A stretch of 13,055 nt of DNA from an uncultured Granulosicoccaceae bacterium (lineage in GTDB: Bacteria; Pseudomonadota; Gammaproteobacteria; CALCKW01): assembly GCA_937941555.1 (NCBI GenBank), contig CALDHJ010000376.1, positions 1 through 13,055 of the forward strand, in the 5' to 3' direction. The position numbers and the translations under genes were made by a program. This document shows, piece by piece, positions 1 through 13,055 of the stretch (its first letter is position 1; each line of letters starts with the position of its first letter). Below the pieces are notes generated by a model. The model saw only the letters and a program-made list of their open reading frames with translations, made no database searches and had not been told where the DNA came from.

Positions 1-1
1 C

Positions 2-640
2 CCGGCGAAAGTCCGCGCGTGGGAACTGTCTGAAGAACTCAAAGACATCCTGCGCCCGCTGTTCCAGAAGCACCAGGACGACATCATGTCCGGTCACTTC
101 TCAAGCACCATGATGGCCGACTGGGCCAACGACGACGCGAATCTCCTCGGTTGGCGCGCCGCCACCGCCGAGACCGACTTCGAAAAGCAGCCGATCACCG
201 ACGACGAAATCACCGAGCAAGAATATTTCGACAAGGGCATCCTCATGGTCGCCATGGTGCGGGCCGGTGTCGAGCTCGCCTACGAGACCATGGTGGACGC
301 GGGCATCATCGAAGAGAGTGCCTACTACGAGTCGTTGCACGAGACGCCGCTGATTGCCAACACCATCGCACGCCGCAAGCTCTACGAAATGAATGTGGTG
401 ATCTCAGACACAGCTGAATACGGCTGCTACCTGTTCGATCACGCCGCACGGCCGCTTCTGGCCGAGCAGTTCATGCCGAAGATCAAGAGCGATGTCATCG
501 GCAAAGGCCTCGATGTCGCCGATACCGGCGTTGACAACAAGACCCTGGTCGACATCAACGCAGCACTGCGCGATCACTCCGTTGAAGTGGTTGGCAGCAA
601 GTTGCGTGGCTACATGACGGGCATGAAGGCTATCGTGTAA
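2..640 (+). CDS. ilvC: Ketol-acid reductoisomerase, class II (C-terminal part)
   Basis: The gene is open from the first base, in the frame starting at base 2, so only the last 212 residues and the TAA stop are present. The enzyme performs the NADPH- and Mg-dependent isomeroreduction of acetolactate or acetohydroxybutyrate, the second common step of valine, isoleucine and leucine synthesis, in the cytoplasm. The fragment covers most of the duplicated knotted helical domains typical of the long class II form. [45 protein letters not shown] and [10 protein letters not shown] match the E. coli protein almost word for word. By eye, the two glutamates of ESLHE and the serine of ISDTAEYG correspond to the E. 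coli metal and substrate residues E389, E393 and S414, so the active site looks intact. The N-terminal Rossmann domain lies outside the window. The next gene converges on it 43 bp downstream. Confidence 0.97.
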
Positions 641-683
641 CGCCTGTCCGAACAGGATCGACGCGGTTGGGTGCCCGGCGCAC

Positions 684-2414
684 TCAACTGCGTTCGCGGA
701 ACCAGTCACCCGGCTCGGCCATGCGGGGCAAAATGCCCTCGCAGGTCTTGCCGCGGTGCCGAAGCGCATTGAATACTCCAAGCGCGACCCCACTGGCGCC
801 CCCCGTCAAAGCGCCAGCCCAGACCTCCGCCGCCAGGGATACCGACCCGACCGCGTCGATATTGGGTCGCAAACCGGTCAGGTTCCCAGCAAGCTTGATC
901 GACTTGAAATATTTGTTGAGATTCAACCCGACACCACCACGCGCACGCGGTAACACGTTGAACTCGATTTTCTCCCGGTGCAGATCGATCGCACTGTTGA
1001 AGAAGAGGTCAACGTGCGGGGACTGAATCAGCACCTTGCGATCGGCGTCGACCATGCCCTCTTCGAACACCAGATTCACCGAACCACACTGGACTTCGGT
1101 GATCTGACTCTCCTCGTCCTGCCCAGCACTGACAAAGCGGTACAAGAGCAACACCAGGTCGCCACCCAGCGCATCAAGCGCCTGACCGTCGAGCTGTGAT
1201 TCCCCCATCAGGATCTGCAGCTTACCGTCGGTTGTCGACAGCATTTCGGCCGTTGAACGGCCAAAGCCTTCGAGATCGACCAACACTTCACTCGGCGCCA
1301 CCGAATCGATACCCAGGGCCGCGACAGTTGGCCACCTTGACCAATACATGTCCTCGGCATGCAAGCCAAGGTTCCAACGCGCACGCGTACCCGAACTGAA
1401 ATCAACCTTCAACGCCGCCGTCGCCCGACCACCAAAAAGTTCACTGCGCAGCGGTCCGACAAACAGCACCCCGTCGTCGAGCGAGACGTCCAGGGTCGTG
1501 TTCGACACGGTGAGATCCTCGTACACCCACTGGTCGAGTGTCGCCCGGCCTACCACATCCCACTCTCGCATCCACTGCAAGTTCAGGCGTTCATCACTGC
1601 CTACCCGCGCGTCGGAAGACCAATCGTCTTGCGACTCGACGGGCAGAGCCCATTCAAAGCGATCTCCGCGCAGGTCAAACTCCAAACGGTGTGGCACGAC
1701 GCCGAGGTCGGCAACGGCTTCACCGACAAAGCGGTTACCCGCAATCGACAGCGACTCGAGCGCGAGCTCGACACTGTTGCCTGCCGGGCTGAGAGCGGCT
1801 TCGACCGCGAGCGGTACCGCATCGTGCACACCGCTCGCGGACAGTCGGTACCCGCCGCCGGTGGGGGTCAGATCGAGTGTCGAGACGGTGGACCGGATGA
1901 CCTGGCCAACTTCGTCGCCCGGCAAGAGCAAGGTCACCTCGCGCAAGCTGATCGGACCGATCTCCGGTACGTCCAGCGCTATCGGCTCCGCCGGTTCAGA
2001 AGCGTGAGCGGCCTCAGATTCAGCCCCGGATTCGCCATCAGGCTCTGCCAACGCCCGGTTGACGGCATCGGCATTGATCAGCACGTCACCCGCATCCAGC
2101 GATGACAAGGTCCAACCCGCTTCGCCCTCGGTTGCACTGGCACTGAGATCAGCTGCAGAGAAAACGAATTGTTTGTCTTCGCGCTGTGGATCCGTGACGA
2201 GCACACCTGTGGCCGAGACGGCCGGGGTTGGGTACCAATCGATGTTGAGCGAGTCGTAGTCGAGTTTCAGGCCAGTCGCCAACTGAAAACCGATACGCGG
2301 TGCGAACAACCGCACAAAAAGGCAAAAAAGTCCGATCAGCAGCACCGAAATAATTACAATTCGCAGGAAGCGGTTCTGCCACGCAGATTTCAATCGAATA
2401 CTGAGAACTGTCAT
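684..2414 (-). CDS. AsmA-like envelope protein
   Basis: This is a 576-residue protein with a short basic N-terminus and one membrane segment at about residues 19-37 (IVIISVLLIGLFCLFVRLF), followed by a long periplasmic region rich in beta-strand patterns. The layout is that of AsmA/YhdP-type proteins, which form extended beta-groove structures thought to move or organise phospholipids between the membranes. Residues of about 355-480 resemble the AsmA C-terminal region (a segment like GKLQILMGESQLDG, then SVNLVFEEGMVDAD and FNVLPRARGG). An acidic, alanine-rich stretch lies near residues 124-144. The tail is a glycine/alanine-rich hydrophobic segment of about 30 residues and then a basic end with one Cys. 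The start is ATG at 2414; a GTG directly before it at 2417 is an alternative, and neither has a strong ribosome site. It diverges from the LytM lipoprotein gene. The family call is by overall pattern, not by a single motif. Confidence 0.75.
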   Translation of the reverse strand: MTVLSIRLKSAWQNRFLRIVIISVLLIGLFCLFVRLFAPRIGFQLATGLKLDYDSLNIDWYPTPAVSATGVLVTDPQREDKQFVFSAADLSASATEGEAGWTLSSLDAGDVLINADAVNRALAEPDGESGAESEAAHASEPAEPIALDVPEIGPISLREVTLLLPGDEVGQVIRSTVSTLDLTPTGGGYRLSASGVHDAVPLAVEAALSPAGNSVELALESLSIAGNRFVGEAVADLGVVPHRLEFDLRGDRFEWALPVESQDDWSSDARVGSDERLNLQWMREWDVVGRATLDQWVYEDLTVSNTTLDVSLDDGVLFVGPLRSELFGGRATAALKVDFSSGTRARWNLGLHAEDMYWSRWPTVAALGIDSVAPSEVLVDLEGFGRSTAEMLSTTDGKLQILMGESQLDGQALDALGGDLVLLLYRFVSAGQDEESQITEVQCGSVNLVFEEGMVDADRKVLIQSPHVDLFFNSAIDLHREKIEFNVLPRARGGVGLNLNKYFKSIKLAGNLTGLRPNIDAVGSVSLAAEVWAGALTGGASGVALGVFNALRHRGKTCEGILPRMAEPGDWFRERS

Positions 2415-2516
2415 CACACCGTCTGTCTAGTCCAAATGGGCTGCTCGCCGCGGCAACATACCGCAGCGCCGCACCAACACATCACGTCAAACACGCATTC
2501 AAGGAAGGTCTTCAAC
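2415..2516. promoter_or_regulatory. Divergent intergenic region (AsmA-like / LytM)
   Basis: About 100 bp separate two genes transcribed away from each other, so promoters for both must lie here or within the gene starts. I could not pick out convincing -35/-10 pairs on either strand. The sequence is less GC-rich than the flanking genes. Confidence 0.35.
2501..2508 (+). promoter_or_regulatory. Ribosome binding site of the LytM lipoprotein gene
   Basis: AAGGAAGG lies 8 bases before the ATG at 2517. This is the strongest Shine-Dalgarno sequence seen in the window. It fixes the start here although the reading frame is open for more than 340 bases further upstream, where it only overlaps the divergent AsmA-like gene. 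Confidence 0.75.
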
Positions 2517-3107
2517 ATGATCAGCGTTGTCCGAACGATCAACACTACACCGTCTCTGATCGCGATAAAACGCACGGTCGCCATTCTATGCGTGATGTTG
2601 TTGCCCGCCTGCCAGACGGTGAACACCTTGAAGGAGAAGCTGCCAGATCTGCCGAAGCTCCCGCAGGCCGGGCCGAAATACGCACAATTCAAATCGACGG
2701 AAGCGCCGCACACCTTGATGACCAAACCCGTCGCCACCGGCACGCTGACATCGGGCTACGGGTTTCGTCTGAGCCCGACCGGGATTCGCCTGCCGAAGAA
2801 ACACAAAGGCATCGACTACAAAGCCCCAGTGGGCACACCCATCTACGCCGCGGGCGATGGCGTGGTGATCGCCAAGCGCGTGAGCACCTCCTACGGCAAC
2901 TACGTCAAGATCAGCCACGACAACGGCTTTTCAAGCGCCTACGCCCACCTCGACGGCTTCGCACCCTCCCTCGAGCGAGGCACTGAGGTCAAACGGGGTC
3001 AGGTCATTGGCTACGTTGGCAACACCGGGCGCTCCACCGCAGCCCACTTGCACTACGAGCTGCTCTACCGTGGCAAGCGGGTCGACCCGTTGTTTGCCAC
3101 CCGGTAG
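2517..3107 (+). CDS. LytM/M23-domain lipoprotein
   Basis: The product is 196 residues. The N-terminus has a basic/hydrophobic signal ending in LLPAC, so Cys32 is the probable lipidated residue (Pro at -2 is acceptable but not ideal). A Lys/Pro-rich linker covers residues 36-60 and a compact LytM (peptidase M23) domain covers about 75-196. The zinc and catalytic residues of the family are all present: His96 and Asp100 (HKGID), His144 (YAHL), and His177 and His179 (AAHLH). Unlike EnvC- or NlpD-type LytM factors, whose own zinc ligands are lost, it may therefore be an active peptidoglycan endopeptidase cutting cross-link peptides. There is no LysM or coiled-coil region, so this is a minimal version of the family. 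It is expected to be anchored to a membrane and act in the periplasm. It has its own ribosome site and stands alone between a divergent and a convergent gene. Confidence 0.92.
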   Translation: MISVVRTINTTPSLIAIKRTVAILCVMLLPACQTVNTLKEKLPDLPKLPQAGPKYAQFKSTEAPHTLMTKPVATGTLTSGYGFRLSPTGIRLPKKHKGIDYKAPVGTPIYAAGDGVVIAKRVSTSYGNYVKISHDNGFSSAYAHLDGFAPSLERGTEVKRGQVIGYVGNTGRSTAAHLHYELLYRGKRVDPLFATR

Positions 3108-3115
3108 GCTTGCGG

Positions 3116-3142
3116 CGCCGTGACGCAGCGGGCGTCACGGCG
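3116..3142. terminator. Perfect GC-rich hairpin between convergent genes
   Basis: CGCCGTGACGC (3116-3126) and GCGTCACGGCG (3132-3142) are exact reverse complements around a 5-base loop. The hairpin starts 9 bases after the stop of the LytM gene and ends 9 bases before the stop of the convergent beta-barrel gene, the right place for a two-way terminator. No T-run follows on either strand, so it is not a classical intrinsic terminator. It may instead stop or protect the 3' ends of both messages. Confidence 0.55.
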
Positions 3143-3151
3143 GCGTCAGCG

Positions 3152-3658
3152 CTACTCGCCGAAGCGGTAGTGGAAACCCAACCCAAGCGTCAGCAGGTCG
3201 AAACCGCTGTAATCGCCCCAGGCAACGTACCCGATCCCGGCTTCGATACTGATCGTCAGCGGAATGAACTCCGGCACCGCTTCCAGAAGATCGTAATCCA
3301 GCCCCACACCAACCCCGATACCCACGCCACTGTCGCTTTCGAACGACTGGCTGCCGATGATGAATCGGTTGGTGTAACGCCAGTACCCGAGCTGGCCATA
3401 GTAGTAATAGTCCAGCGCCTCGGTATCCTGAAAATACAACATGCCGCGAACCACTGCGCTGGTTGTTGACCCCAGTGCGCCGACCACACCACCGATGGTG
3501 ACGTCTTCGCTGATGGGATACCGAATGCTGGGCCCGGCCGAGCGCATCGTCGATTGGTAACCGAGCGACAGATCTCGCTGCGCATGGGCAAGGGGGGCCA
3601 TCAACACCGTTGACAACACCGCCCATCCCATTATTCCGAACACCCGCATTCCCTTCAT
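3152..3658 (-). CDS. Small predicted outer-membrane beta-barrel protein
   Basis: The product is 168 residues. It starts with a typical Sec signal peptide (MKGMRVFGIM, hydrophobic core, then APLAHA), with likely cleavage after Ala26. The mature part of about 140 residues consists of alternating polar/hydrophobic strands rich in Gly, Tyr and Phe, for example LDYYYYGQLGYWRY, GVGIGVGVGLDYDLL and LTLGLGFHYRF. This is the pattern of an 8-stranded OmpA/OmpW-like barrel. I recognise no specific family and no substrate can be assigned. The start at 3658 is preceded on its own strand by a GGAG-type ribosome site about 9 bases upstream; Met4 is an alternative start. It is transcribed alone, convergent with the LytM gene. 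Confidence 0.7.
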   Translation of the reverse strand: MKGMRVFGIMGWAVLSTVLMAPLAHAQRDLSLGYQSTMRSAGPSIRYPISEDVTIGGVVGALGSTTSAVVRGMLYFQDTEALDYYYYGQLGYWRYTNRFIIGSQSFESDSGVGIGVGVGLDYDLLEAVPEFIPLTISIEAGIGYVAWGDYSGFDLLTLGLGFHYRFGE

Positions 3659-3910
3659 CTCGATTCACTCCATCGTGAGTTGTTTCTCTACCGCCAATAT
3701 ACACAACTATTTTCCGTGATCGCGCTTGAACGCGTCTGCGGGCAAAATGAACGTGTCGCGGTTGACCATTCGAGCCAGGTCCGCAGCCAATCGACTGGAC
3801 GACGGATGCAGAGCATCATGTCCGAAACTGTCGCACGATCGGCCGCCACTGACGCTCCACGGCGCTCAGACCGTGGCAGTCTGTCGTGGCACACAACTCA
3901 CGGAAGCCCC
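3659..3910. promoter_or_regulatory. Divergent intergenic region with an AT-rich patch
   Basis: These 252 bp separate the beta-barrel gene (-) from the cysteine hydrolase gene (+). An AT-rich patch at about 3695-3720 stands out from the GC-rich surroundings. On the minus strand it contains TATATT (3702-3697), about 38 bases before the beta-barrel start, a reasonable -10 element with no good -35. The rest, including the frame open upstream of the hydrolase, does not look coding. A promoter for the hydrolase-regulator pair should lie here, but I cannot point to it. Confidence 0.35.
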
Positions 3911-4648
3911 ATGTCACATACCGCCTTGTTGGTCATCGACGCACAGCGTGCCTTCGAGCACGATCCCGAATGGCACGAACCCGCGACGGCACACTGGCTC
4001 GACCAGCAGAACCGCCTGATCGACGGCGCGCTATCCCGCTGCTGGCCCATCGCCGCCGTGCTGCACCACAGCCGCTACCATTTCGATCCGGATGGCGAAG
4101 GTGTGGAACCAGTCAACGGCTTGAACCTGCCTGCAGACACGCCGCGCTTTATCAAACACGCGCATACCGCGTTCTCGGCCGCCGGCCTGCCCGACTGGTT
4201 GCAATCCCACCGCATTTCACACGTGATCGTCAGCGGCATACGCACCGAGCAATGCTGCGAGACCACCGCACGCGCAGCGCGCGACGCCGGCTACGATGTT
4301 GACTTCCCACTCGACGCAACCTTGACCTTCTCCATGCCATCGCACGCTGGCGACACCGTGTCGGCAGATGCCATCAAGGCCCAGACGGCAACGGCCCTGC
4401 ACCGGCGATTCGCCACCGTTTCCACGGTTGACGACCTGCTCGAGCGAAGCCCGCTTGCGACCCTCAACCAACACTGCCCACGCAGCGGTGCACGCGTTGA
4501 CCCGGATTCCGTCACAGACTATCGTGGCCACACAGTTGGTTTTTGCAACCCTGGGTGCCGAGACGGATTTCGAAGCGATCCAAACGCCTGTGTCGCGGAT
4601 CGCCGCCATTTCGACCGGCTCATCGCGCTGCAATCCGGGGCGTTGTGA
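3911..4648 (+). CDS. Isochorismatase-family cysteine hydrolase with C-terminal YHS-like metal site
   Basis: The product is 245 residues. Residues 1-180 are an isochorismatase/nicotinamidase-type hydrolase with the catalytic triad visible: Asp10 (LLVIDAQ), Lys83 (FIKHAHTAF) and Cys115 (SGIRTEQCCETTAR). Members cleave amide or vinyl-ether bonds of small molecules such as nicotinamide, N-carbamoyl compounds or isochorismate; the substrate here is unknown. Residues of about 188-225 add a second unit, CPRSGARVD, then FCNPGC and a following SDP. This is the arrangement of YHS/TRASH-like metal-binding domains (Cys189, Cys212, Cys216). ATG at 3911 is chosen because the family begins a few residues before the first Asp and GGAAG lies just upstream; the frame stays open back to about 3680 but that part looks non-coding. 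The stop overlaps the next gene's start (GTGA), so the two are translated together. The second domain may sense or hold a metal needed by the enzyme, which is inference. Confidence 0.88.
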   Translation: MSHTALLVIDAQRAFEHDPEWHEPATAHWLDQQNRLIDGALSRCWPIAAVLHHSRYHFDPDGEGVEPVNGLNLPADTPRFIKHAHTAFSAAGLPDWLQSHRISHVIVSGIRTEQCCETTARAARDAGYDVDFPLDATLTFSMPSHAGDTVSADAIKAQTATALHRRFATVSTVDDLLERSPLATLNQHCPRSGARVDPDSVTDYRGHTVGFCNPGCRDGFRSDPNACVADRRHFDRLIALQSGAL

Positions 4649-5637
4649 CGACTCGACTGCCGATCCCCGACGGGGTTGATCTGCTGGTGCTGCCGAAAAT
4701 GCACCTGCTCGATCTCTCGGGGCCGGCACAAGTCCTGGCGCACCGCGCCGTGCGTTGTCCGGTCCGCATGATCGGGCCGGCTCGCCACGTCACCACGGCA
4801 CAAGGGCTGCCACTGGGGCCGATCGAAGATCTGCCCGATCGCATCGCCCCCAACCGATGGCTGCTCGTCATCGGCTCAACCGAACTGCCAGACTGGCTCG
4901 ACAGTGCGACCGGGCGCGATACCGCCCGCTGGCTGCGCGAACGCGCCGGTCAGTGGACGCGTGTAGGTTCGGTGTGCGCCGGCGCGCTCATGCTCGCCGA
5001 TGCCGGCCTGCTCGACGGGCGTCGGGCCACCACTCACCACAGCCTGCTCGCCGAACTGCGCACCCGCGCACCGGAGGCTGAGGTAATCGACGACCGACTG
5101 TTTTGCGATGACGGCGAACGCTGCACGAGTGCCGGGCTCTCCAGCGCAATCGACCTCGCCCTGCACCTCGTCGCATGCCACTGGGGAGACGCCACGGCAA
5201 AAGACATCGCGCGCGATCTCGTGATCTACCCACGCGCTGTGCACGGCGGCCAGAACCTGCCCTTCGACAGTCTCTACCGGCAACACCCGGATCAGCGCAT
5301 TCAAAGCGCACAGGACCGGCTCGAACGAGATCTCGGTGCACCGGGTGGGGTCACTGCACTCGCCGACAGCGTGCACTTGAGTGAACGGCAATTCCGACGG
5401 CGCTTTCGGGCGGCAACGGGTTTACCGGTCAAGCGTTACCTGCAACTGGCCCGGCTGGCGCGCAGCGAATCGCTGCTGCACAACCCGGCACTGTCGATCG
5501 AACAGATCGCAGAACAGTCCGGTCTCGCCGACGCGCGCAGCCTGCAACGATTGTGGCAGCGCGAGCGAGGCTGCTCACCCAGCGCTGCACGCGAAGAAGT
5601 GCGCGCGCAAAGCTCGCCTACACCGCCGGCAGACTAA
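4645..5637 (+). CDS. GlxA-type transcriptional regulator (DJ-1/PfpI + AraC helix-turn-helix)
   Basis: The product is 330 residues from a GTG start at 4645 that overlaps the previous stop by four bases. The N-terminal half (about 10-190) is a class I glutamine-amidotransferase-like (DJ-1/PfpI) sensor domain, with the nucleophile-elbow Cys111 in GSVCAGALMLADAGLLDGRRATTHH, the signature of GlxA-family regulators. The C-terminal part (about 215-325) is an AraC-type DNA-binding unit with two helix-turn-helices: VTALADSVHLSERQFRRRF, and IEQIAEQSGLADARSLQRLW. Relatives control use of nitrogen compounds such as arginine, carnitine, glycine betaine or dimethylglycine. Tight coupling to the hydrolase suggests that it senses the hydrolase's substrate or product and controls this pair or the nearby genes. 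The 3' end overlaps the convergent cupin gene by 20 bp. Confidence 0.9.
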   Translation: MTTRLPIPDGVDLLVLPKMHLLDLSGPAQVLAHRAVRCPVRMIGPARHVTTAQGLPLGPIEDLPDRIAPNRWLLVIGSTELPDWLDSATGRDTARWLRERAGQWTRVGSVCAGALMLADAGLLDGRRATTHHSLLAELRTRAPEAEVIDDRLFCDDGERCTSAGLSSAIDLALHLVACHWGDATAKDIARDLVIYPRAVHGGQNLPFDSLYRQHPDQRIQSAQDRLERDLGAPGGVTALADSVHLSERQFRRRFRAATGLPVKRYLQLARLARSESLLHNPALSIEQIAEQSGLADARSLQRLWQRERGCSPSAAREEVRAQSSPTPPAD

Positions 5638-6700
5638 CCTCCAGCAGCTCGAGGTCATCACTGCACTGCGCGTAACGGGTCATCATGCCGCGCGGCAGCA
5701 CAAAGGCTTCACCGGCCCCGAGGGGCTGTTCGCCCTTGTTGCTTTGCAACACCATCGAGCCGCTGAGAATGAAGGTGAACAGAATGTCGACCCCGTGCGC
5801 GACCTCGGGCGTCTCGCCGCCGGTGTAGCGCGCGACCTGTACTCCGGCCACTCCGCCACTCGCCGCCGCCACACCCGTATCCCGGGATTCAAATCCAGCC
5901 ATGCGCCAGGCTTGCCATGTGGCGCTGTCGAGCTGGTGGTGGCAGAAGCGCTGACCGTCAAACTCACGCTCGCGGTTGATGACGCCGTTGGGCAACGACA
6001 TCTCGTGATCGATGGTGGTGACGTGCTCCGCGGGCACGCCGATCTCGATCACCTGCAATTCATCCGACGCTTCGAGCACACGGTGGCGGATTTGCGGCGG
6101 CTGGGTCACGCAGTCACCGGCGTTGAGGATGAACGGTTCGCCCTGGTCCTCGTAGACCAGCCGCACCCAGCCCTTGTAGCAATAGATCAGCTGAAAGCCG
6201 ACCGTGTGGTAGTGCACCATGTCCGGCACCGGGCCGCCGGTCGGGATGCGAATGTGCGACGCGATGATGCTGCCGCCCAGCCGACCGGGAATCAGATCGC
6301 GGTAGTGCATGCCGGCGCGGCCGATCACCCAGGGCGCGCGGTCGACCAGACGGCGCAAGATGTATTCCTGGGTCGGTGTTGGAGTGTCGTAGTCGGGGTC
6401 GATTGCAGCGATCTCGATCCGATTGCCCGCGGGCGAGGTCAACAGCGTCTCGCCCTTCGCAAACGTCGCCGGATCATCGGCCAGCACACACAGTGTCACC
6501 GGCGATTCGGGTGCATCCCGCTGCAGCCTCAGATAGGTCCCGTGGCCGGACAACAACGCCGTTCGCGGGTCATCAGCCGGGTAGATTTCATCCAAGCGAA
6601 ATCCGAGCGCAGTCTGGAAGAACGCCATCTCGGCGCCGAGATCAGAGCAGGGTACGCGCACTTCCGCGCGCGACGACGGTGCAGGAGAATAGCTCGACAT
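5618..6700 (-). CDS. Glyoxalase-like (VOC) plus double-cupin fusion protein
   Basis: The product is 360 residues with three regions. Residues of about 12-102 look like a vicinal-oxygen-chelate half-module (RVPCSDLGAEMAFFQTALGF ending in SPAGNRIEIA). Residues of about 140-225 are a cupin with His163, His165, Gln170 and His206 (HYHTVGFQ ... GDCVTQPPQIRH) as probable metal ligands. Residues of about 285-357 form a second cupin-like barrel (VDILFTFILSG ... GAGEAFVLPRG) that lacks the histidine set and is probably structural. Metal-dependent cupins are often dioxygenases, isomerases or lyases of small organic acids, so an enzymatic role on a small metabolite is likely but undefined. ATG at 6700 is preferred because the conserved part begins soon after; an upstream in-frame ATG at 6742 would add 14 residues. 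No clear ribosome site is seen. It diverges from the HAD gene and converges on the GlxA-type regulator. Confidence 0.78.
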   Translation of the reverse strand: MSSYSPAPSSRAEVRVPCSDLGAEMAFFQTALGFRLDEIYPADDPRTALLSGHGTYLRLQRDAPESPVTLCVLADDPATFAKGETLLTSPAGNRIEIAAIDPDYDTPTPTQEYILRRLVDRAPWVIGRAGMHYRDLIPGRLGGSIIASHIRIPTGGPVPDMVHYHTVGFQLIYCYKGWVRLVYEDQGEPFILNAGDCVTQPPQIRHRVLEASDELQVIEIGVPAEHVTTIDHEMSLPNGVINREREFDGQRFCHHQLDSATWQAWRMAGFESRDTGVAAASGGVAGVQVARYTGGETPEVAHGVDILFTFILSGSMVLQSNKGEQPLGAGEAFVLPRGMMTRYAQCSDDLELLEVSLPAV

Positions 6701-6765
6701 GGTCAGGTGGACTGCAGGAGACCGCGTTACTCTAGCACGCACTCATCGCCTCACCGGAGTCGGCC

Positions 6766-7380
6766 ATGACCGCCCGACCACTGCACATTGTTTTCGATAT
6801 CGGGCAAGTTCTGTTGCGCTGGAACCCCGAACTGCTCTACCGAATACTGATCCCCGACGACGGCGAGCGGGCGCGGTTTTTTGCCGAAGTCTGCACCCCG
6901 GCCTGGAACCTCGAACAAGACCGCGGACGATCCTGGGAGGAAGGCGAGGCACTCCTGATTGCCGACCACCCCGACCAGGCCGACAACATCCGCGCGTGGC
7001 GCGCGCGCTGGCACGAAACCGTCCCGCACGCACTGGACGACTCGGTTGCGATCATGCAGACCCTGATCGCGCAGGGTTGCGACGTCACGCTGCTCAGCAA
7101 CTTCAACCAACACACCTTCGCGGAGGTCCGATTGCGTTTCCCCTTTCTCGACGCACCGCGTGGCCGCACCATTTCGGCCCACGTCGGCCTGATCAAACCC
7201 GAGCCCGAAATCTACCGGCACCACATCCGCGCTTTCGATCTCGACCCGGCAAAAACGCTCTTTATCGACGACTCCGCAACCAATATTCACGCGGCCGAAG
7301 CCGCAGGCTGGCAGGGACACCTGTTTTCGACCGCCTCAGGCTTGTATCAGGATCTGCAGAACAGAGGGCTACCGGTGTAA
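6766..7380 (+). CDS. HAD-superfamily phosphatase, YihX-like
   Basis: The product is 204 residues, close to the length of E. coli YihX (a glucose-1-phosphate phosphatase). All four HAD motifs are seen: the nucleophile Asp11 in FDIGQVLLRW, Ser111 in LLSNFN, Lys144 in GLIKPEPEIY, and Asp168/Asp169 in FIDDSATNI. The Gly at the third place of the first motif (DIG rather than DID) is usual in the YihX branch, which has FDLGNV, so it does not argue against activity. The alpha-helical cap lies between motifs I and II (about 20-95). It should dephosphorylate a small sugar phosphate or similar compound in the cytoplasm. A GGAG ribosome site lies 6 bases before the ATG. The gene stands alone, divergent from the cupin fusion and convergent with the esterase. 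Confidence 0.88.
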   Translation: MTARPLHIVFDIGQVLLRWNPELLYRILIPDDGERARFFAEVCTPAWNLEQDRGRSWEEGEALLIADHPDQADNIRAWRARWHETVPHALDDSVAIMQTLIAQGCDVTLLSNFNQHTFAEVRLRFPFLDAPRGRTISAHVGLIKPEPEIYRHHIRAFDLDPAKTLFIDDSATNIHAAEAAGWQGHLFSTASGLYQDLQNRGLPV

Positions 7381-7438
7381 CGCGGTTACGCGTCCTGTTC
7401 TCCGAACACCCTGACCACATGCCGACGATGTCCGTTTC

Positions 7439-8416
7439 TCAGTCGGGCGCTGCAGCGTTGGGCGCCACCGCGTCGGCGGGCAGCTCATCCGGCGGCGCAA
7501 AGCCCTTGATGGCCTCGACGATGCGATCAAAGCTCGCGCGCGCGCGGTCGGCGCGGTGGCGCGCACGCAGGTAGCCGTGCACCAGACCGTCCTCGTTGAC
7601 GTACCGCGCCTCCCCACCCGCCGCCACCAGCCGCTCGCAATAGTGGCGCGCGTCGTCGCGCAGCGGATCGCAGTCTGCGCTGAAGGCGACCGTCGGTGGC
7701 AGGTTACTGAAATCGGCCGCCGACAGCGGCGCAAAGGTCGGGTCGAGGCTGAGGTCGCGGCCGGCGCTGTTCACCTGGTGGTAATAAAGCACATCATCGC
7801 GTGTCAGCATCGGTGCGTCACTGTGCTCGAGGTAGGAGCCAACCGAAGTGTCACCGCCAAGCCCCGGGTAGATCAACACCTGACCCAGCGGCCGCTGAGC
7901 GCCGCGCAGGACATTGGCGAGGGCCGCGCACAGATGGCCACCGGCGCTGTCACCCGCCAAAATCACCCGCCCATCGACGTGGTCCCAGATCCAGCGGTAG
8001 GCCGCGAGCACATCGGCGAAAGCCGCCGGGTGCGGGTGCTCGGGGCAGAGCCGGTAGTCCACCCCTACAACCGCAAGCCCGGTACGCTCGGCGAGTTCGC
8101 TGCACACATCGTCATGGCTCTCGAGATTCCCCACCACAAAGCCGCCGCCGTGCAGGTAGAGCACGGCCGCCGGTGCGAAGACCGTGCTGCGGTAGACCCG
8201 CACCGGCACACTGAGCCCGTCGCGCTCGGCGTTGACGTCGCTTGAGATCACCTCATCCGATCGCGGTTGCTTGAAGGCCGCGCACATCGCGTCGTAGACC
8301 CGGCGTTGGCCCGCCGCGTCGAGGTCGGTGGTGTCGGGTGGATAGTGGGATTCGGTCTCGCGGATGAACTGCCAGGTCTGGTCGTCGATCAGCGCGGTGT
8401 AGTCGGGTGTGTTCAT
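7439..8416 (-). CDS. Alpha/beta-hydrolase, HSL-type (family IV) esterase
   Basis: The product is 325 residues with the hormone-sensitive-lipase family marks. The oxyanion-hole motif HGGGF is at residues 89-93, the nucleophile elbow GDSAGG has Ser157, the acid residue is Asp250 in DCDPLRDD, and the base is His280 in GLVHGY. YRLCPEHPHPAA, usual after the oxyanion loop, is also present. The protein should hydrolyse short-chain acyl esters in the cytoplasm; no signal peptide is seen. ATG at 8416 (MNTPDYTALID) is chosen over an upstream in-frame ATG at 8524, whose extra 36 residues are basic, unlike the family, and would run over the divergent ogt start. The C-terminal 20 residues are an Ala/Pro/Asp-rich tail. 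It converges on the HAD gene with 58 bp between the stops. Confidence 0.93.
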   Translation of the reverse strand: MNTPDYTALIDDQTWQFIRETESHYPPDTTDLDAAGQRRVYDAMCAAFKQPRSDEVISSDVNAERDGLSVPVRVYRSTVFAPAAVLYLHGGGFVVGNLESHDDVCSELAERTGLAVVGVDYRLCPEHPHPAAFADVLAAYRWIWDHVDGRVILAGDSAGGHLCAALANVLRGAQRPLGQVLIYPGLGGDTSVGSYLEHSDAPMLTRDDVLYYHQVNSAGRDLSLDPTFAPLSAADFSNLPPTVAFSADCDPLRDDARHYCERLVAAGGEARYVNEDGLVHGYLRARHRADRARASFDRIVEAIKGFAPPDELPADAVAPNAAAPD

Positions 8417-8522
8417 GCCGAAATTGTCCCGCTTTGCACCCGCCGACACAACCGCGCCAGCCCTGCATCGAGTCGGCCCGCGTGCGATACACTGGCCCCA
8501 CTTCAGACGGCGTGTTCTGCTC
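8417..8522. promoter_or_regulatory. Divergent intergenic region (esterase / ogt)
   Basis: These 106 bp should hold promoters for both the esterase (-) and the ogt-led run (+). TACACT at 8488-8493, within GCGATACACTGG, is a possible -10 element for ogt, 29 bases before its ATG, but I see no good -35 partner. Nothing convincing was found on the minus strand. Confidence 0.3.
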
Positions 8523-9020
8523 ATGGCCTCTCCGCTTCGATTCAGCTACCACCACAGTCCGGTCGGGCCGCTCCTGGTGGCGGGCGATGCGCGTGCATTG
8601 CACTATCTGAACTTCCCCGGCGGCAGCCGGGCGATGGCGCCCCACGCCGACTGGCTGCGCGACGACGGCTTTTTCGGCGAAGTCCGCCGCCAGCTCGACG
8701 CTTATTTCGCCGGCGAGCTGACCCGCTTCACGCTCACCCTCGAACACACCGGCACAGCCTTCCAGAAGCAGGTCTGGCAGGCATTGCTCGAGATCCCTTA
8801 CGGGGAGACCACCAGTTACGGCGAGCTTGCCAAACGCATCGGCAAACCCACCGCGTCGCGTGCGGTCGGCGCCGCCAACGGTGCAAACCCACTGCCGATC
8901 ATCACGCCCTGCCACCGCGTGCTCGGCGCCGACAACTCACTCACCGGCTTCGGCGGCGGGGTCGAGACAAAGCGCTTCCTGCTCGCCCATGAGCAACGCG
9001 ACCTGCTCAGCGGCCTCTGA
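8523..9020 (+). CDS. ogt: Methylated-DNA--[protein]-cysteine S-methyltransferase
   Basis: The product is 165 residues, the size of Ogt-type proteins without an Ada regulatory domain. It removes methyl groups from O6-methylguanine and O4-methylthymine by moving them to its own cysteine, a one-time suicide repair reaction. The acceptor is Cys130 in PIITPCHRVLG, and the typical following segment TGFGGGVETKRFLLAHE is present. The helix-turn-helix that flips out the base is seen in IPYGETTSYGELAKRIGKPTASRAVGAANGANP, with the Arg finger. ATG at 8523 begins just before the family's N-terminal domain, whereas the frame open further upstream to 8409 overlaps the divergent esterase. It is the first gene of a same-strand run, with only 39 bp before the next start, so it is probably co-transcribed with the two amino-acid-enzyme-like genes that follow. 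Confidence 0.95.
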   Translation: MASPLRFSYHHSPVGPLLVAGDARALHYLNFPGGSRAMAPHADWLRDDGFFGEVRRQLDAYFAGELTRFTLTLEHTGTAFQKQVWQALLEIPYGETTSYGELAKRIGKPTASRAVGAANGANPLPIITPCHRVLGADNSLTGFGGGVETKRFLLAHEQRDLLSGL

Positions 9021-9059
9021 CGCCAGAATCCAACGCCGCCCTCACCCGGAGACACCGTG

Positions 9060-10073
9060 ATGTCAGAATCGTCCCCACCGGTCTACCTCGATTTCCTCAA
9101 TCGCTTCGACATCGAGTCGCTCGGCATCACCGATGACGAGATTCTGCAAGCGGTCGAAGGCGCCCTGATCTCACAGGGACGCGGTGAAACCGAGATCGAG
9201 CCACGTACCCACATTCGCCCGCGCACCGATGTCGAGGGCCACTTCAATGTACTGCGCGGCTGGATCGGCGGCGACATCGACTCTGCCGGGGTGAAGGTGG
9301 TTGGCGACTATGTGCCCAACTATCTGCAAGGGCGTCCCTCGGAATACGGCCTGCTGACGCTGTTCGATCCGCACATGGGTGCACCCAAGGCGATCATCGA
9401 TGCCACCGGCATCACCGAGATGCGCACTGGCGCCATTACCGCCCTCGGCGCCAAGCACCTCGGCCCGCGCAACCCGAAAGTGCTTGCCCACATCGGCGCG
9501 CGCGGCACCGCCTACTGGAACGTGCGCCTGCTTTGCCACCTGTTCGATTTCGATGAGGTGCGTGTGCATTCGCGGCGACCCGAGAGCCGGGACGCCTTCG
9601 CCGCCACGCTGCGGCGCGATCTCGGGCGCGAGATCATGGTCACGGACGACTGGCAGAACTGCCTCGAGGGTGCCGACATCCTGGTCGAGGCCTCGCGTTT
9701 ACCAAGCCCGCAGCCCTTGTTCAAAACCAGCTGGGTCAAACCCGGCGCACTGGTCGTACCTTACGGCACCATGTCGGCGGTCGAGCTGAGTTTGACCGAC
9801 ATCATGGACAAGGTGGTCATGGACGACTGGGGCCAGGCGCACGGTCTGTTCGGCTCGCTGCGCGCCCATGTCGACGCCGGCAAACTCAGCGCCGACACCC
9901 TGCACGCCGAACTCGGCCAGATCGCGGCCGGACTCAAGCCGGGCCGCGAGCGCGACGACGAAACCATCCTGTTCTGGCACCGCGGCCTCTCGCTCTCCGA
10001 CATCGCGCTCGGCCACGCCATGCTCGACAAGGCCAAGCGACTCGGCGTCGGCCAGCGCCTGCGCTTTTACTGA
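9060..10073 (+). CDS. Ornithine cyclodeaminase / mu-crystallin family protein (divergent active site)
   Basis: The product is 337 residues, the usual family length. Family members use NAD(P) to deaminate or reduce amino acids and imines: ornithine and lysine cyclodeaminases, alanine dehydrogenase, ketimine reductases. Family features seen are Lys79 (GVKVVGDY), Arg122 in ITEMRTGAITALGAKHL, the Rossmann strand HIGARGTA (145-151), and the end GRERDDETILFWHRGLSLSDIALG. Two things are unusual. The loop reads IGARGTA where the family usually has IGAG or IGTG followed by xQA. The segment after KPGA reads LVVPYGTMSAVEL, where ornithine cyclodeaminase has an Asp-containing VGGDxPGKxEL. By eye the catalytic Asp is therefore missing, so proline formation from ornithine is unlikely. 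ATG at 9060 has a GGAG site 8 bases upstream; an in-frame GTG directly before it is a weaker choice. The stop lies one base before the ATG of the lyase-like gene. Confidence 0.85.
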   Translation: MSESSPPVYLDFLNRFDIESLGITDDEILQAVEGALISQGRGETEIEPRTHIRPRTDVEGHFNVLRGWIGGDIDSAGVKVVGDYVPNYLQGRPSEYGLLTLFDPHMGAPKAIIDATGITEMRTGAITALGAKHLGPRNPKVLAHIGARGTAYWNVRLLCHLFDFDEVRVHSRRPESRDAFAATLRRDLGREIMVTDDWQNCLEGADILVEASRLPSPQPLFKTSWVKPGALVVPYGTMSAVELSLTDIMDKVVMDDWGQAHGLFGSLRAHVDAGKLSADTLHAELGQIAAGLKPGRERDDETILFWHRGLSLSDIALGHAMLDKAKRLGVGQRLRFY

Positions 10074-10074
10074 T

Positions 10075-11556
10075 ATGCATCTCGACGGCAGCCACATCGA
10101 TCTCGATGCCTTCTGCGACGCGGCGCGGACACCGCGGGCGCTCACCGTGGCAGACACCGTGCAGGCGCGGATCCGTGACACGCACGCGCGGGTCGCGACA
10201 CTTGCCGACGGCGCACCGGCCTACGGCTTGAACACCGGACTCGGCGCCAACCTCAATCACCGCCTCGACGCGGCTGAACGCAAAACCTACCAACGGCAAC
10301 TCCTGCGCGAACGCGCCGTCGCCTGTGGCGAACCGCTCGCGGAGAACCTCTGCCGCGGCGTGTTGCTCTCGCGCGTCATCACCGCCACCAGCGGCCACAG
10401 TGGCATCAGCCCCGCGCTGTTCGATTTTCTGTGTGAGGTGTACCGCCAGGGCCTCGCACCCGTGACCCCCGAATACGGCTCCATCGGCGCTGGCGACCTG
10501 ACCCAGAGCGCAACTGCTGGGCTTGCGCTTTGCGGCGAAGGCGAACTCTGGCTCGACAACACCCGGCACGACGCTGCAGCGCTCTTGTCGGCGCAAGGGC
10601 TGACCGCGCCTTCGTTACAAGCCCGGGACGGCATGGTGCTCGCGAGCCACTCGGGCGTGACCGTCAGCCTCACTGCGCACGCGCTAAACGGCGCGCGCAC
10701 CGCTCTCGACATGCTGCAACACGCCGCCCTGCTGGCCTACTTGGGTTTCGACGCCAACCGCACCATCTTCGCCGAAGCCACCAATGCCTTGCGACACGCA
10801 CCAGGCCAGGCCGAGACAGCCGCGTGGTTTCGCAGGGCACTCGACGGTGCGAGCCACCATCCGCGGCAAGTGCAAGAGGCGCTGTCGTTTCGCACGGTCG
10901 CGCCCGTGTTGGGCGCCGCGCGCGATGCGCTGGACCGCGCCACCGCGATCTGGACAGACGAACTCAACGCGTGTGCCGACAACCCGGTGCTACTCGACGA
11001 CGGGCAGATGTACTCCACACCCAACTTTCACAACGGCGCCCTCGCGCTGGCCCTGCAGACCCTGCGCATCGCGCTCACGGACGCCGCGACCGGGAGCGTG
11101 CAGCGCATGCAACGGATGATGGAGCCCGAGCGCTCGGGGTTGCCGCGCTACCTCGCCGATGACACCCAAGCCGGTGCAGGCCTGGTACCCACCCAGAAAA
11201 CCGCACTCGCCCTGCTCGCGGAAGTCAGGCAGCACGGAAGCGCAATCGAACACACAGCGCTCGCGGTCAGCGATGGGGTTGAGGACGTCGCGCCGCTGAC
11301 AGCCACGGCGGCCAGACAGCTGCAACGCCAACTCCACCCCCTGCGGCTCCTGGCCGGCCTCGAGTCGCGTGTGGCCTGCCGTGCGATAACGCTGCGCAAG
11401 CCTGAGACACTCGGCGCACTCGGGGCAGCACTTTTTCGGTCCTTGCCCGCCCCTCAGGCCGCCTTTGCTCGAGACATTCAGGCCGCCACCGACGGGCTGG
11501 ACCGGTTTTGCACTCACACCCGACAAGGCGACCGAGTCGCCACAACTTCGGATTAG
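10075..11556 (+). CDS. Aromatic amino acid ammonia-lyase family protein (HAL/PAL-like) without the MIO tripeptide
   Basis: The product is 493 residues, near the roughly 510 of HutH, with the whole fold recognisable. YGLNTGLGANLNHRL is at 50-64, the MIO region at 135-150, SFRTVAPVLGAARDALDRA at 271-289, CADNPVLL at 300-307, and NFHNGALALA at 317-326. Normal members form the MIO prosthetic group from Ala-Ser-Gly and remove ammonia from His, Phe or Tyr. Here residues 135-142 read GSIGAGDL: one residue is missing and no Ser is present, so MIO cannot form by the known route. By eye against P. putida HutH, Tyr53, Gln277, Arg283, Phe329 and Glu414 are kept (Tyr50, Gln267, Arg273, Phe318, Glu403). 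His83, Asn195 and Tyr280 are changed (to RER, SH and Leu270). A true ammonia-lyase is therefore doubtful. ATG at 10075 follows the previous stop by one base. It converges on the DUF2007 gene with six bases between the stops. Confidence 0.88.
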   Translation: MHLDGSHIDLDAFCDAARTPRALTVADTVQARIRDTHARVATLADGAPAYGLNTGLGANLNHRLDAAERKTYQRQLLRERAVACGEPLAENLCRGVLLSRVITATSGHSGISPALFDFLCEVYRQGLAPVTPEYGSIGAGDLTQSATAGLALCGEGELWLDNTRHDAAALLSAQGLTAPSLQARDGMVLASHSGVTVSLTAHALNGARTALDMLQHAALLAYLGFDANRTIFAEATNALRHAPGQAETAAWFRRALDGASHHPRQVQEALSFRTVAPVLGAARDALDRATAIWTDELNACADNPVLLDDGQMYSTPNFHNGALALALQTLRIALTDAATGSVQRMQRMMEPERSGLPRYLADDTQAGAGLVPTQKTALALLAEVRQHGSAIEHTALAVSDGVEDVAPLTATAARQLQRQLHPLRLLAGLESRVACRAITLRKPETLGALGAALFRSLPAPQAAFARDIQAATDGLDRFCTHTRQGDRVATTSD

Positions 11557-11562
11557 CAGCCT

Positions 11563-11907
11563 TCAAGACCAACTCACCACCGTGAGTGCCGCGAACGCCA
11601 CCGCCGCGAGGCACAACAGCAACAGACGCCAACCGGGCGCGCCGCCCGCCGGGGTGGGCTCACCGCTCTCATCGCCGGGGTCCCACTCGCTTGGGGTCGC
11701 GTTGTCATCGTAGCCCTCCACGATCACCCGTGCGCGCGTGGCATCCTCGGGCGCCACCCGTACCACGGCAAAATCGCTCGCTGGCAGTTCGCCGATCCCG
11801 CCTTGTAAAAAGCTCCCCGACGCCTGGGCATCGATGCCCTCGGCCTGCAACAGCCCGGCGACAATGTGGGCTTCCTGGGGATTGGCTGCTCGGTAGACAA
11901 TTTTCAT
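11563..11907 (-). CDS. DUF2007-domain protein with C-terminal membrane anchor
   Basis: The product is 114 residues. The first 65 match the DUF2007 pattern (MKIVYRAANPQEAHIVAGLLQAEGIDA ... ASDFAVVRVAPEDATRARVIVEGY), a small ferredoxin-like fold annotated as a putative signal-transducing or PII-like protein of unknown function. An acidic, Gly/Pro-rich linker (67-92) is followed by one membrane segment at about 94-112 (LLLLCLAAVAFAALTVVSW). The small domain probably faces the cytoplasm. The start lies 12 bases after the stop of the metallopeptidase gene, whose last codons supply a GGAG site about 15 bases upstream. The two are therefore probably co-transcribed and perhaps coupled in translation. 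Confidence 0.82.
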   Translation of the reverse strand: MKIVYRAANPQEAHIVAGLLQAEGIDAQASGSFLQGGIGELPASDFAVVRVAPEDATRARVIVEGYDDNATPSEWDPGDESGEPTPAGGAPGWRLLLLCLAAVAFAALTVVSWS

Positions 11908-11919
11908 CGCGGGCTGTTG

Positions 11920-12795
11920 TTACTCCGGGTGATCATCAATGGTGGCGCGGCGCACGGCAGTTTGCGCGCGGATGTGCGCTCGAACCGATCGCAGCGTCGG
12001 ATAGTCGTGAAAGAAATTGACCTTGTCTTCACGCTCGGTACGCGGTTCGGCAATGCGGTCCATGAACACGAAGTAGGCAAAGCTCTCGGCAAAATCCTCG
12101 ACCGGGTTGGTGGCCGCGTACTCGTTGACGAACGCATCCTCGTGATCGCGGTAGAACGCCTCGAGCGCCGCCGGGTTCGCCTCCGCGTCGCCGACCGTCT
12201 TACGGTGTTGCACAAACCGCTCGCCCGCCCAGAAGGTATCAAACCACCGCTGCAACCACGACGTCGATCGGGCACAGCCCTCATCGATTTCGAATTGCTT
12301 GCCACACTGTTCGGCAAAGGGGTCGACCTGGCTGTCGCCGAGGCCGATGATGTGGGCAAATTCATGCGTCAATGTGGTCACCCATTCACCGGCGTCGGCG
12401 TCCACGGCATCGACATAGTCCACCGCGAACAACCAACGCTTGCGGTCAGTGCCGAGCTGCGCGACGTAGGCAAGGAACTCATCCGCGCCATCGCTGAAGA
12501 CGTGAAACTCCGCCACCCGATCGTCGAGGATGTCGGGCGGCAGGAGCGCGCGCACGCGTCGCCAGGTCTCGCTGTCGACAGCCGTTTCGTCATCGCCTTC
12601 CACCAGGCTCAGCGTGTGGTCATCTGAATTGACGGCGTAGACCGAGATCGGGTCGAGCAGGTCGGGCGTCTCGGCGGTCGCACCCGTCGCGCAGGCCACC
12701 GACGAGGACGCCAGCCCCACGCCGATAACGACGCGAAACGCCCGGCACACATCCCTTGCGCAGAAACGCGTCCCTCTCTCACCTGCCCACGCCAT
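11920..12795 (-). CDS. Secreted or membrane-attached zinc metallopeptidase (HEFAH)
   Basis: The product is 291 residues. The N-terminus has a basic part, a hydrophobic stretch (VVIGVGLASSSVAC) and Cys35; SVAC is only a weak lipobox, so either a lipoprotein or an ordinary signal peptide is possible. The zinc motif HEFAH is at 144-148 within TLTHEFAHIIGLGD. A downstream segment NEYAATNPVEDFAESFAYFVF (225-244) should supply the third ligand, from Glu233 or Glu237. Between them EQCGKQFEIDEGCARSTSWL holds Cys164 and Cys174, probably a disulfide, which supports an extracytoplasmic location. I recognise the general gluzincin-like pattern but not a named family, so no substrate is given. ATG at 12795 has a GGA about 10 bases upstream. 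It lies between the sulfatase fragment (32 bp upstream) and the DUF2007 gene (12 bp downstream) on the same strand. Confidence 0.78.
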   Translation of the reverse strand: MAWAGERGTRFCARDVCRAFRVVIGVGLASSSVACATGATAETPDLLDPISVYAVNSDDHTLSLVEGDDETAVDSETWRRVRALLPPDILDDRVAEFHVFSDGADEFLAYVAQLGTDRKRWLFAVDYVDAVDADAGEWVTTLTHEFAHIIGLGDSQVDPFAEQCGKQFEIDEGCARSTSWLQRWFDTFWAGERFVQHRKTVGDAEANPAALEAFYRDHEDAFVNEYAATNPVEDFAESFAYFVFMDRIAEPRTEREDKVNFFHDYPTLRSVRAHIRAQTAVRRATIDDHPE

Positions 12796-12827
12796 CGTCT
12801 GTATTCCGCTCTGTCTCGGGTGTCAGT

Positions 12828-13055
12828 CTAACTGCCAACCGGTGTGTGATTGAACGGCGTCAAGGCGGCGAGCCCGGCCTCTCCTCCAAGCGACGCCAAC
12901 AGCGCGGCTTGCGAATCGAGCGCGAGGCGGTTGCATGCTTCGATGTCGACGATGCGGTTCAGCGCCGTCGAGAGCTCGGCGTGCTCGGGCACATCGAGCG
13001 TGGCGAGATCGCGCAGTTCATCGGGGTCGGTCTCAGTGTCAAAGAACTGATCCGG
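12828..13055 (-). CDS. Probable sulfatase, C-terminal fragment
   Basis: The minus strand is open from the window edge to a TAG at 12830-12828, giving 75 residues with no start in the window. The text begins PDQFFDTETDPDELRDLATL and ends with ALTPFNHTPVGS. The DPxE phrase after an (L/F)FD strand, then a helix like LNRIVDIEACNRLALDSQAALL, a GG turn and a short tail, is how many alkaline-phosphatase-fold sulfatases end. The catalytic formylglycine site (CxPxR) would lie about 400 residues upstream, outside the window, so activity and substrate cannot be judged. The gene is probably the first seen of a same-strand run with the metallopeptidase and DUF2007 genes. The call rests on the tail alone. 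Confidence 0.7.
   Translation of the reverse strand, partial: PDQFFDTETDPDELRDLATLDVPEHAELSTALNRIVDIEACNRLALDSQAALLASLGGEAGLAALTPFNHTPVGS

Follow-up and report, generated by a model that had tools for sequence, protein, structure and literature searches.

We analyzed a stretch of 13,055 nucleotides from an uncultured Granulosicoccaceae bacterium (contig CALDHJ010000376.1, positions 1 to 13,055), hereafter called the window, in which a gene encodes a protein of the histidine/phenylalanine ammonia-lyase (HAL/PAL) fold that lacks the Ala-Ser-Gly from which the methylidene-imidazolone (MIO) ring is formed. This protein, the window lyase, is preceded by an oxidoreductase of the OCD/mu-crystallin family (OCD, ornithine cyclodeaminase). 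The alignments and trees described below place it in a conserved clade without MIO, in a branch that is sister to that of ergothionase and has Arg80 as its own signature.

The lyase gene and its shortened loop

The frame of the lyase gene is intact from its ATG at 10075 to the stop ending at 11556. The codons of the loop (GGC TCC ATC GGC GCT GGC GAC CTG) encode GSIGAGDL, and, when aligned with the canonical HutH that the host genome encodes on a separate contig (GSVGASGDL), the protein is one residue shorter at this place. Codon reading and alignment thus confirmed the loss proposed in the earlier note on this DNA, namely that of the MIO-forming Ala-Ser-Gly by one in-frame codon in a gene otherwise intact over 493 residues. 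The protein matches the family model PF00221 over its full length, and its predicted structure is a confident aromatic amino acid lyase fold, modeled from an alignment in which relatives of ergothionase were present. It resembles HutH in this fold and in the equivalents of Tyr53, Gln277, Arg283, Phe329 and Glu414, whereas it has no Ala-Ser-Gly, and hence no MIO by the known route, has Arg for His83 and Leu for Tyr280, and reaches 268 bits against the HutH equivalog of NCBIfam (TIGR01225), half the cut-off of 539.

The counts for lyase homologs given here refer to the best 120 of 344 found, the window protein included (listed homologs), and those for the relatives of ergothionase to the best 120 of 2360 found (listed relatives). 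Ala-Ser-Gly was present in none of the listed homologs and the loop was equally short in all 120 (GSIGAGDL in 77, GSIGASDL in 27, GSIGAADL in 8 and other variants in eight), so that the collection yielded a conserved clade with the identical loop length. Where such genes are named, they are usually called histidine ammonia-lyase or aromatic amino acid lyase, and these names are very probably misleading because Ala-Ser-Gly occurs in 0 of the 120. In the alignment, no Ser of the window protein occupies the lost place. Ser is found at residue 140 in 30 of the 120 (as ASD, DSD or VSD); the GSIGASDL variant retains Ala-Ser with Asp next, and a ring may be formed from Ala-Ser-Asp in the Ser140 homologs.

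A genome of the same genus contains a syntenic homolog that is 53% identical and has the loop GSIGAADL, and nine of the 12 other window genes tested were matched within one stretch of that genome; two other same-genus genomes gave no lyase match at E 1e-40. At this threshold, 18 of 369 genomes of the host's class matched the lyase, three with the MIO-free loop (the window genome and two others), 14 with an MIO loop (ACG in one) and one with an odd loop, and 385 genomes of another class of the same phylum gave five matches at E 1e-55. The MIO-free branch is uncommon. Plasmid records matching the lyase numbered 856, of which 14 were examined. The odd loop belongs to another PF00221 lyase without Ala-Ser-Gly (L042, G365:C1:1683989-1685269), which reads GSVGYLTHMAH; its change is different and larger, its position is outside the MIO-free clade, and it is possibly an independent loss of MIO.

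The active-site residues are listed in Table 1 with P. putida HutH numbers, which were placed on the window lyase by motif. Y50, Q267, R273, K375 and E403 are conserved in 119–120 of the 120 listed homologs, and Arg273 is presumably the carboxylate anchor, as in the chemistry of HutH. Among the window-branch locus rows read, only L062 is without Arg80, with His there in a row missing its first part. The earlier note had five HutH residues kept (Tyr53, Gln277, Arg283, Phe329 and Glu414), and these were found as Y50, Q267, R273, F318 and E403. It also had His83, Asn195 and Tyr280 replaced, which is true of the window protein itself (Arg80, Ser191 and Leu270), but Asn195 is not lost in the family, as Asn is the state in 101 of the 120.

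Table 1. Features of the window discussed in the text
Feature	Position	Strand	Remarks
MIO-free HAL/PAL-fold lyase, 493 aa	10075..11556	+	PF00221 E 9e-100; model pLDDT 91.9
Shortened loop GSIGAGDL, residues 135-142	10477..10500	+	one codon shorter than MIO loop GSVGASGDL
OCD/mu-crystallin-family oxidoreductase, usual partner	9057..10073	+	PF02423; stop 1 nt before lyase ATG
Tyr50 (HutH Tyr53)	10222..10224	+	120/120 listed homologs; 120/120 listed relatives of ergothionase
Arg80 (HutH His83)	10312..10314	+	Arg in 120/120 listed homologs; His in 120/120 listed relatives of ergothionase
Ser191 (HutH Asn195)	10645..10647	+	minority state; Asn 101/120, Ser 17/120 listed homologs
Leu270 (HutH Tyr280)	10882..10884	+	Leu in 114/120 listed homologs; 118/120 listed relatives of ergothionase
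Arg273 (HutH Arg283)	10891..10893	+	120/120 listed homologs
Lys375	11197..11199	+	119/120 listed homologs; 114/120 listed relatives of ergothionase; V, I or Y in MIO-type rows read
Glu403 (HutH Glu414)	11281..11283	+	119/120 listed homologs, one gap; 120/120 listed relatives of ergothionase

Relation to ergothionase

The second-best PDB sequence match of the window lyase was the ergothionase of Treponema denticola (PDB 6s7j), which is reported to lack MIO and to yield trimethylamine (PMC13405746). Ergothionase (ergothioneine trimethylamine-lyase, 6s7j/6s7q) and the window lyase have in common the fold, the loss of one residue from the MIO loop and the equivalents of Y50, Q267, L270, R273, K375 and E403, and both fall within a single MIO-free clade, whereas they are only about 25% identical and lie on separate branches. 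At positions 54, 58, 60, 61, 80, 139 and 319, the relatives of ergothionase have R, W, K, D, H, E and E, each in 117 to 120 of the 120 listed, whereas the window protein has T, A, L, N, R, A and H and its branch mostly T, A or G, L, G, R, A and H. Glu139, the loop residue sited where MIO would be, is present in 117 of the 120 listed relatives, and Ala takes its place in 117 of 120 in the OCD branch, to which the window protein belongs.

A careful tree of 53 proteins, computed with the loop columns removed and with L042 handled apart, separated all 32 MIO-free rows from the others by a branch with a support of 100/100; within them, the ergothionase branch was supported at 100/100 and the second branch, which includes the window protein, at 95/93. 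A quick tree of 100 rows, in which L042 was counted in the MIO-free group, concurred. Neither its branch nor its signature thus makes the window lyase an ergothionase, because it lies outside that branch and the branch-specific residues differ. It is a member of the MIO-free clade by common ancestry, by the loss of one loop residue and by Lys375 and Leu270. The best structural match of its model was also ergothionase 6s7j, by a slight margin; this preference is not independent, because relatives of ergothionase were in the model's alignment. Among the PDB chains matched and in the literature found, there was no characterised member of the window branch. As the relatives of ergothionase miss the same residue, the absence of MIO in the HAL/PAL fold was already known, and the surprise that the earlier note attached to an MIO-free member is smaller. 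What is new here, as far as the comparison of sequences goes, is that a second, uncharacterised branch lacks MIO, has an active-site code of its own and is usually accompanied by an oxidoreductase.

The oxidoreductase partner and the gene neighborhoods

The partner scored 169.9 bits against PF02423 (cut-off 24) and is a member of the OCD/mu-crystallin family. It stayed far below the cut-offs of all 13 NCBIfam models that it matched, the best being TIGR02371 (169.6 of 409 bits), and is not an ornithine cyclodeaminase or alanine dehydrogenase proper by the equivalog models. It retains the equivalents of Lys79, Arg122 and Asp256 of the alanine dehydrogenase 1omo, which is among its PDB matches together with the Delta1-pyrroline-2-carboxylate reductase 6t3e and the iminosuccinate reductase 6rqa, and 106 positions of its alignment are invariant in at least 164 of the 165 sequences.

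Its association with the lyase was evaluated in 38 MIO-free loci of the window branch that were chosen by the lyase, the window included. An OCD more than 60% identical to that of the window was present in the stretch at 30 of the 38 and lay directly upstream on the same strand at 26, five of which are from one genus. The eight loci without it (L005, L016, L020, L058, L068, L069, L070 and L081) include some short contigs; L016 ends in a 54% OCD fragment, and the Azospirillum plasmid (L081, identical with L095) was counted among them despite an OCD about 6 kb from the lyase. Left out of the 38 were L091 and L093 (found by OCD), L023 and L024 (only a lyase fragment, close to or at the end of a contig), L053 (a short stretch with the OCD immediately upstream) and short duplicates of larger stretches. 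In the control, none of 11 MIO-type HutH loci had such an OCD, four of the stretches being shorter than 6 kb, and two (L056 and L072) had a weak OCD-family match (26–27%); L089, found by OCD, and the HutH genes within L014, L015, L017 and L018 were kept out of this control. Furthermore, a comparison of 496 locus pairs, drawn from 32 loci of which two are from the ergothionase branch and three were chosen by OCD, showed higher conservation of the OCD than of the lyase in every pair (median 69% vs 39%). Because the OCD is the more conserved of the two, this suggests that it handles one common compound and that the lyases vary in specificity.

The neighbors were re-scored by tblastn, as gene calling was crude in GC-rich loci, in 40 branch loci consisting of the 38 and L091 and L093, several of them on short contigs. 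A hutU gene, an MTTB gene and a PF01613 flavin reductase were each present in five loci and a glycine-betaine-type binding protein in six, and the hutU genes of L007, L014, L015 and L018 scored as ordinary urocanate hydratase. Two SAR116 loci contain, in this order, hutI, hutH, hutU, a flavin reductase, OCD, the MIO-free lyase, MTTB and a Rieske oxygenase, and a Rhodobacteraceae locus has the same series from hutI to the lyase, followed at some distance by a weak Rieske match. As examples found by the OCD search, which do not give a rate, a Paraburkholderia plasmid (L094) has OCD, a canonical hutU and a lyase of the ergothionase branch in a row, and a Comamonadaceae plasmid (L089) has OCD within a complete canonical hut operon with an MIO-type HutH. 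The hutU of L094 scored 967 bits, with the thiourocanate hydratase models below cut-off, and its 19-kb stretch held no further lyase of the family. An OCD is also near the lyase of L028, a locus of the ergothionase branch found by its lyase. Together with six MTTB matches in the host genome, the neighbors point to N-methylated, partly histidine-derived compounds as possible substrates.

The host genome also has two matches to the thiourocanate hydratase model, both partial and below a cut-off that partial genes could hardly reach. Partial urocanate-hydratase-family matches lie at G000:C127:17-1120 and G000:C15:4870-5931, one of them adjoining hutH; they overlap on the model (2-367 and 176-529), so that there may be two such genes.

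Several side observations were made in these loci. A stand-alone gene of about 270 aa resembling PhnD/SsuA-type binding proteins (PF12974 in L021) directly follows the OCD or the lyase in L019, L021, L027, L028, L029, L089, L090, L091, L092 and L093, many of them from soil or plasmids, and its product may be a pathway enzyme rather than part of a transporter. In L090 (10458-14038), an OCD locus in which no lyase was seen, the genes just downstream encode a DUF1638 protein, a protein that binds B12 and one with the annotation "virulence factor", which we take to resemble a corrinoid methyl-transfer set. In the window, a 374-aa protein with two cupin domains (5618-6742) is 77% conserved in the matching same-genus stretch, and an isochorismatase-like hydrolase adjoins a DJ-1/AraC regulator (3680-5637), both retained in the same-genus genome; the best NCBIfam matches of the regulator, FtrA and GbdR, were below cut-off.

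Proposed function and alternatives

We tentatively favor, at somewhat less than even confidence, an MIO-independent C–N lyase whose substrate would be an amino acid that is N-alkylated and perhaps derived from histidine. By general chemistry, the electrophilic assistance required for ammonia to leave would not be necessary for trimethylamine. The window lyase would act on an amino-acid derivative and eliminate from its alpha carbon an amine able to leave without electrophilic activation (N-alkylated, such as trimethylamine in the case of ergothionase), with Tyr50 as the base, Arg273 holding the carboxylate and Lys375 and Glu403 supplying acid/base help, while Arg80 would contact the distal end of the side chain, where there would be an anionic group or an acceptor. 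The reaction would yield an alpha,beta-unsaturated acid, which would resemble urocanate in those members that neighbor urocanate hydratase, and the OCD enzyme would convert a substrate or a product that many of these lyases share. The chances that the leaving group is an N-alkylated amine are about even, and a histidine-derived substrate is the more doubtful part.

Several points weigh against this proposal. In the stretch examined, hutU is absent from 35 of the 40 branch loci, as is MTTB from 35, and within the window the OCD is the sole telling neighbor, the esterase, HAD, MGMT and cupin genes giving no pointer to betaines. Neighbors elsewhere are diverse (TRAP and dipeptide transporters, an amidase, a D-glutamate cyclase, peptidases and a 2-oxoglutarate-dehydrogenase-like gene). 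The Ala in place of ergothionase's loop Glu and the charge of Arg80 are a poor fit for a cationic substrate, and on chemical grounds trimethylamine is an unlikely substrate of an OCD. Opine-like substrates would also be compatible with the NtaA/DmoA-type monooxygenases encoded close to some members and with the imino-acid chemistry of the OCD relatives.

These last points bear on an alternative that we consider unlikely, in which the substrates of the OCD-branch lyases are acidic amino acids with an N-substituent, resembling opines, iminodisuccinate or aminopolycarboxylates; the amino acid released would be oxidized or reduced by the OCD enzyme, and Arg80 would bind the second carboxylate. The invariance of Arg80 among the listed homologs is consistent with it, as are the three PDB matches of the OCD, its strong conservation beside divergent lyases, an NtaA/DmoA-family monooxygenase over cut-off in L025 and the PF01613 flavin reductases. 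However, the hutU, MTTB, Rieske and betaine-transport neighbors, each in a minority of loci, better suit N-methyl compounds, and the sister branch contains a trimethylamine lyase.

It is improbable that the window lyase is itself an ergothionase, converting ergothioneine or its oxidized sulfonate into (thio)urocanate and trimethylamine. The shared MIO loss, Lys375, Leu270 and Glu403, the structural match and the presence of an OCD close to ergothionase-branch genes in L028 and in L094 (which was chosen by OCD) would agree with this, but the protein stands outside that branch and has none of R54, W58, K60, D61, H80, E139 and E319.

A catalytically dead pseudoenzyme serving in binding or regulation is more improbable still. 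The known chemistry of PAL depends on MIO, and replacing the Ser by Ala reportedly left two PALs with almost no activity (PMC3903478, PMC12535398), but an active MIO-free relative exists, the five residues from Y50 to E403 are almost invariant, and the usual neighbor is an oxidoreductase with conserved catalytic positions. The window lyase is quite probably an MIO-free enzyme. The possibility that the gene is a HutH pseudogene, or a HutH gene bearing a single mutation or a read error, is practically excluded by the short loop of all listed homologs and the MIO-free clade in the tree, with the syntenic homolog and the separate Ala-Ser-Gly-containing HutH of the host also against it. The earlier note's claim of a changed activity rather than decay therefore stands as regards decay, and for the amino acid binding that it offered as another option, no evidence of its own was found.

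A more far-reaching version of the favored reading, which we regard as rather unlikely, is a two-enzyme module, not described before, in which a conserved OCD and interchangeable MIO-free lyases degrade N-alkylated amino acids and, in several lineages, convert a histidine betaine such as hercynine into urocanate and trimethylamine. If this were true, the betaine would feed ordinary histidine catabolism without histidine ammonia-lyase, and the lyases would have diversified in side-chain specificity (the Arg80 vs the His80 branch), with the OCD acting on one common compound. With the present findings, the one known MIO-free enzyme is joined by a second branch of its clade, with an active-site code that can be tested and a highly conserved OCD partner, and this provides a lead on the possible bacterial breakdown of histidine betaines and related quaternary amines.
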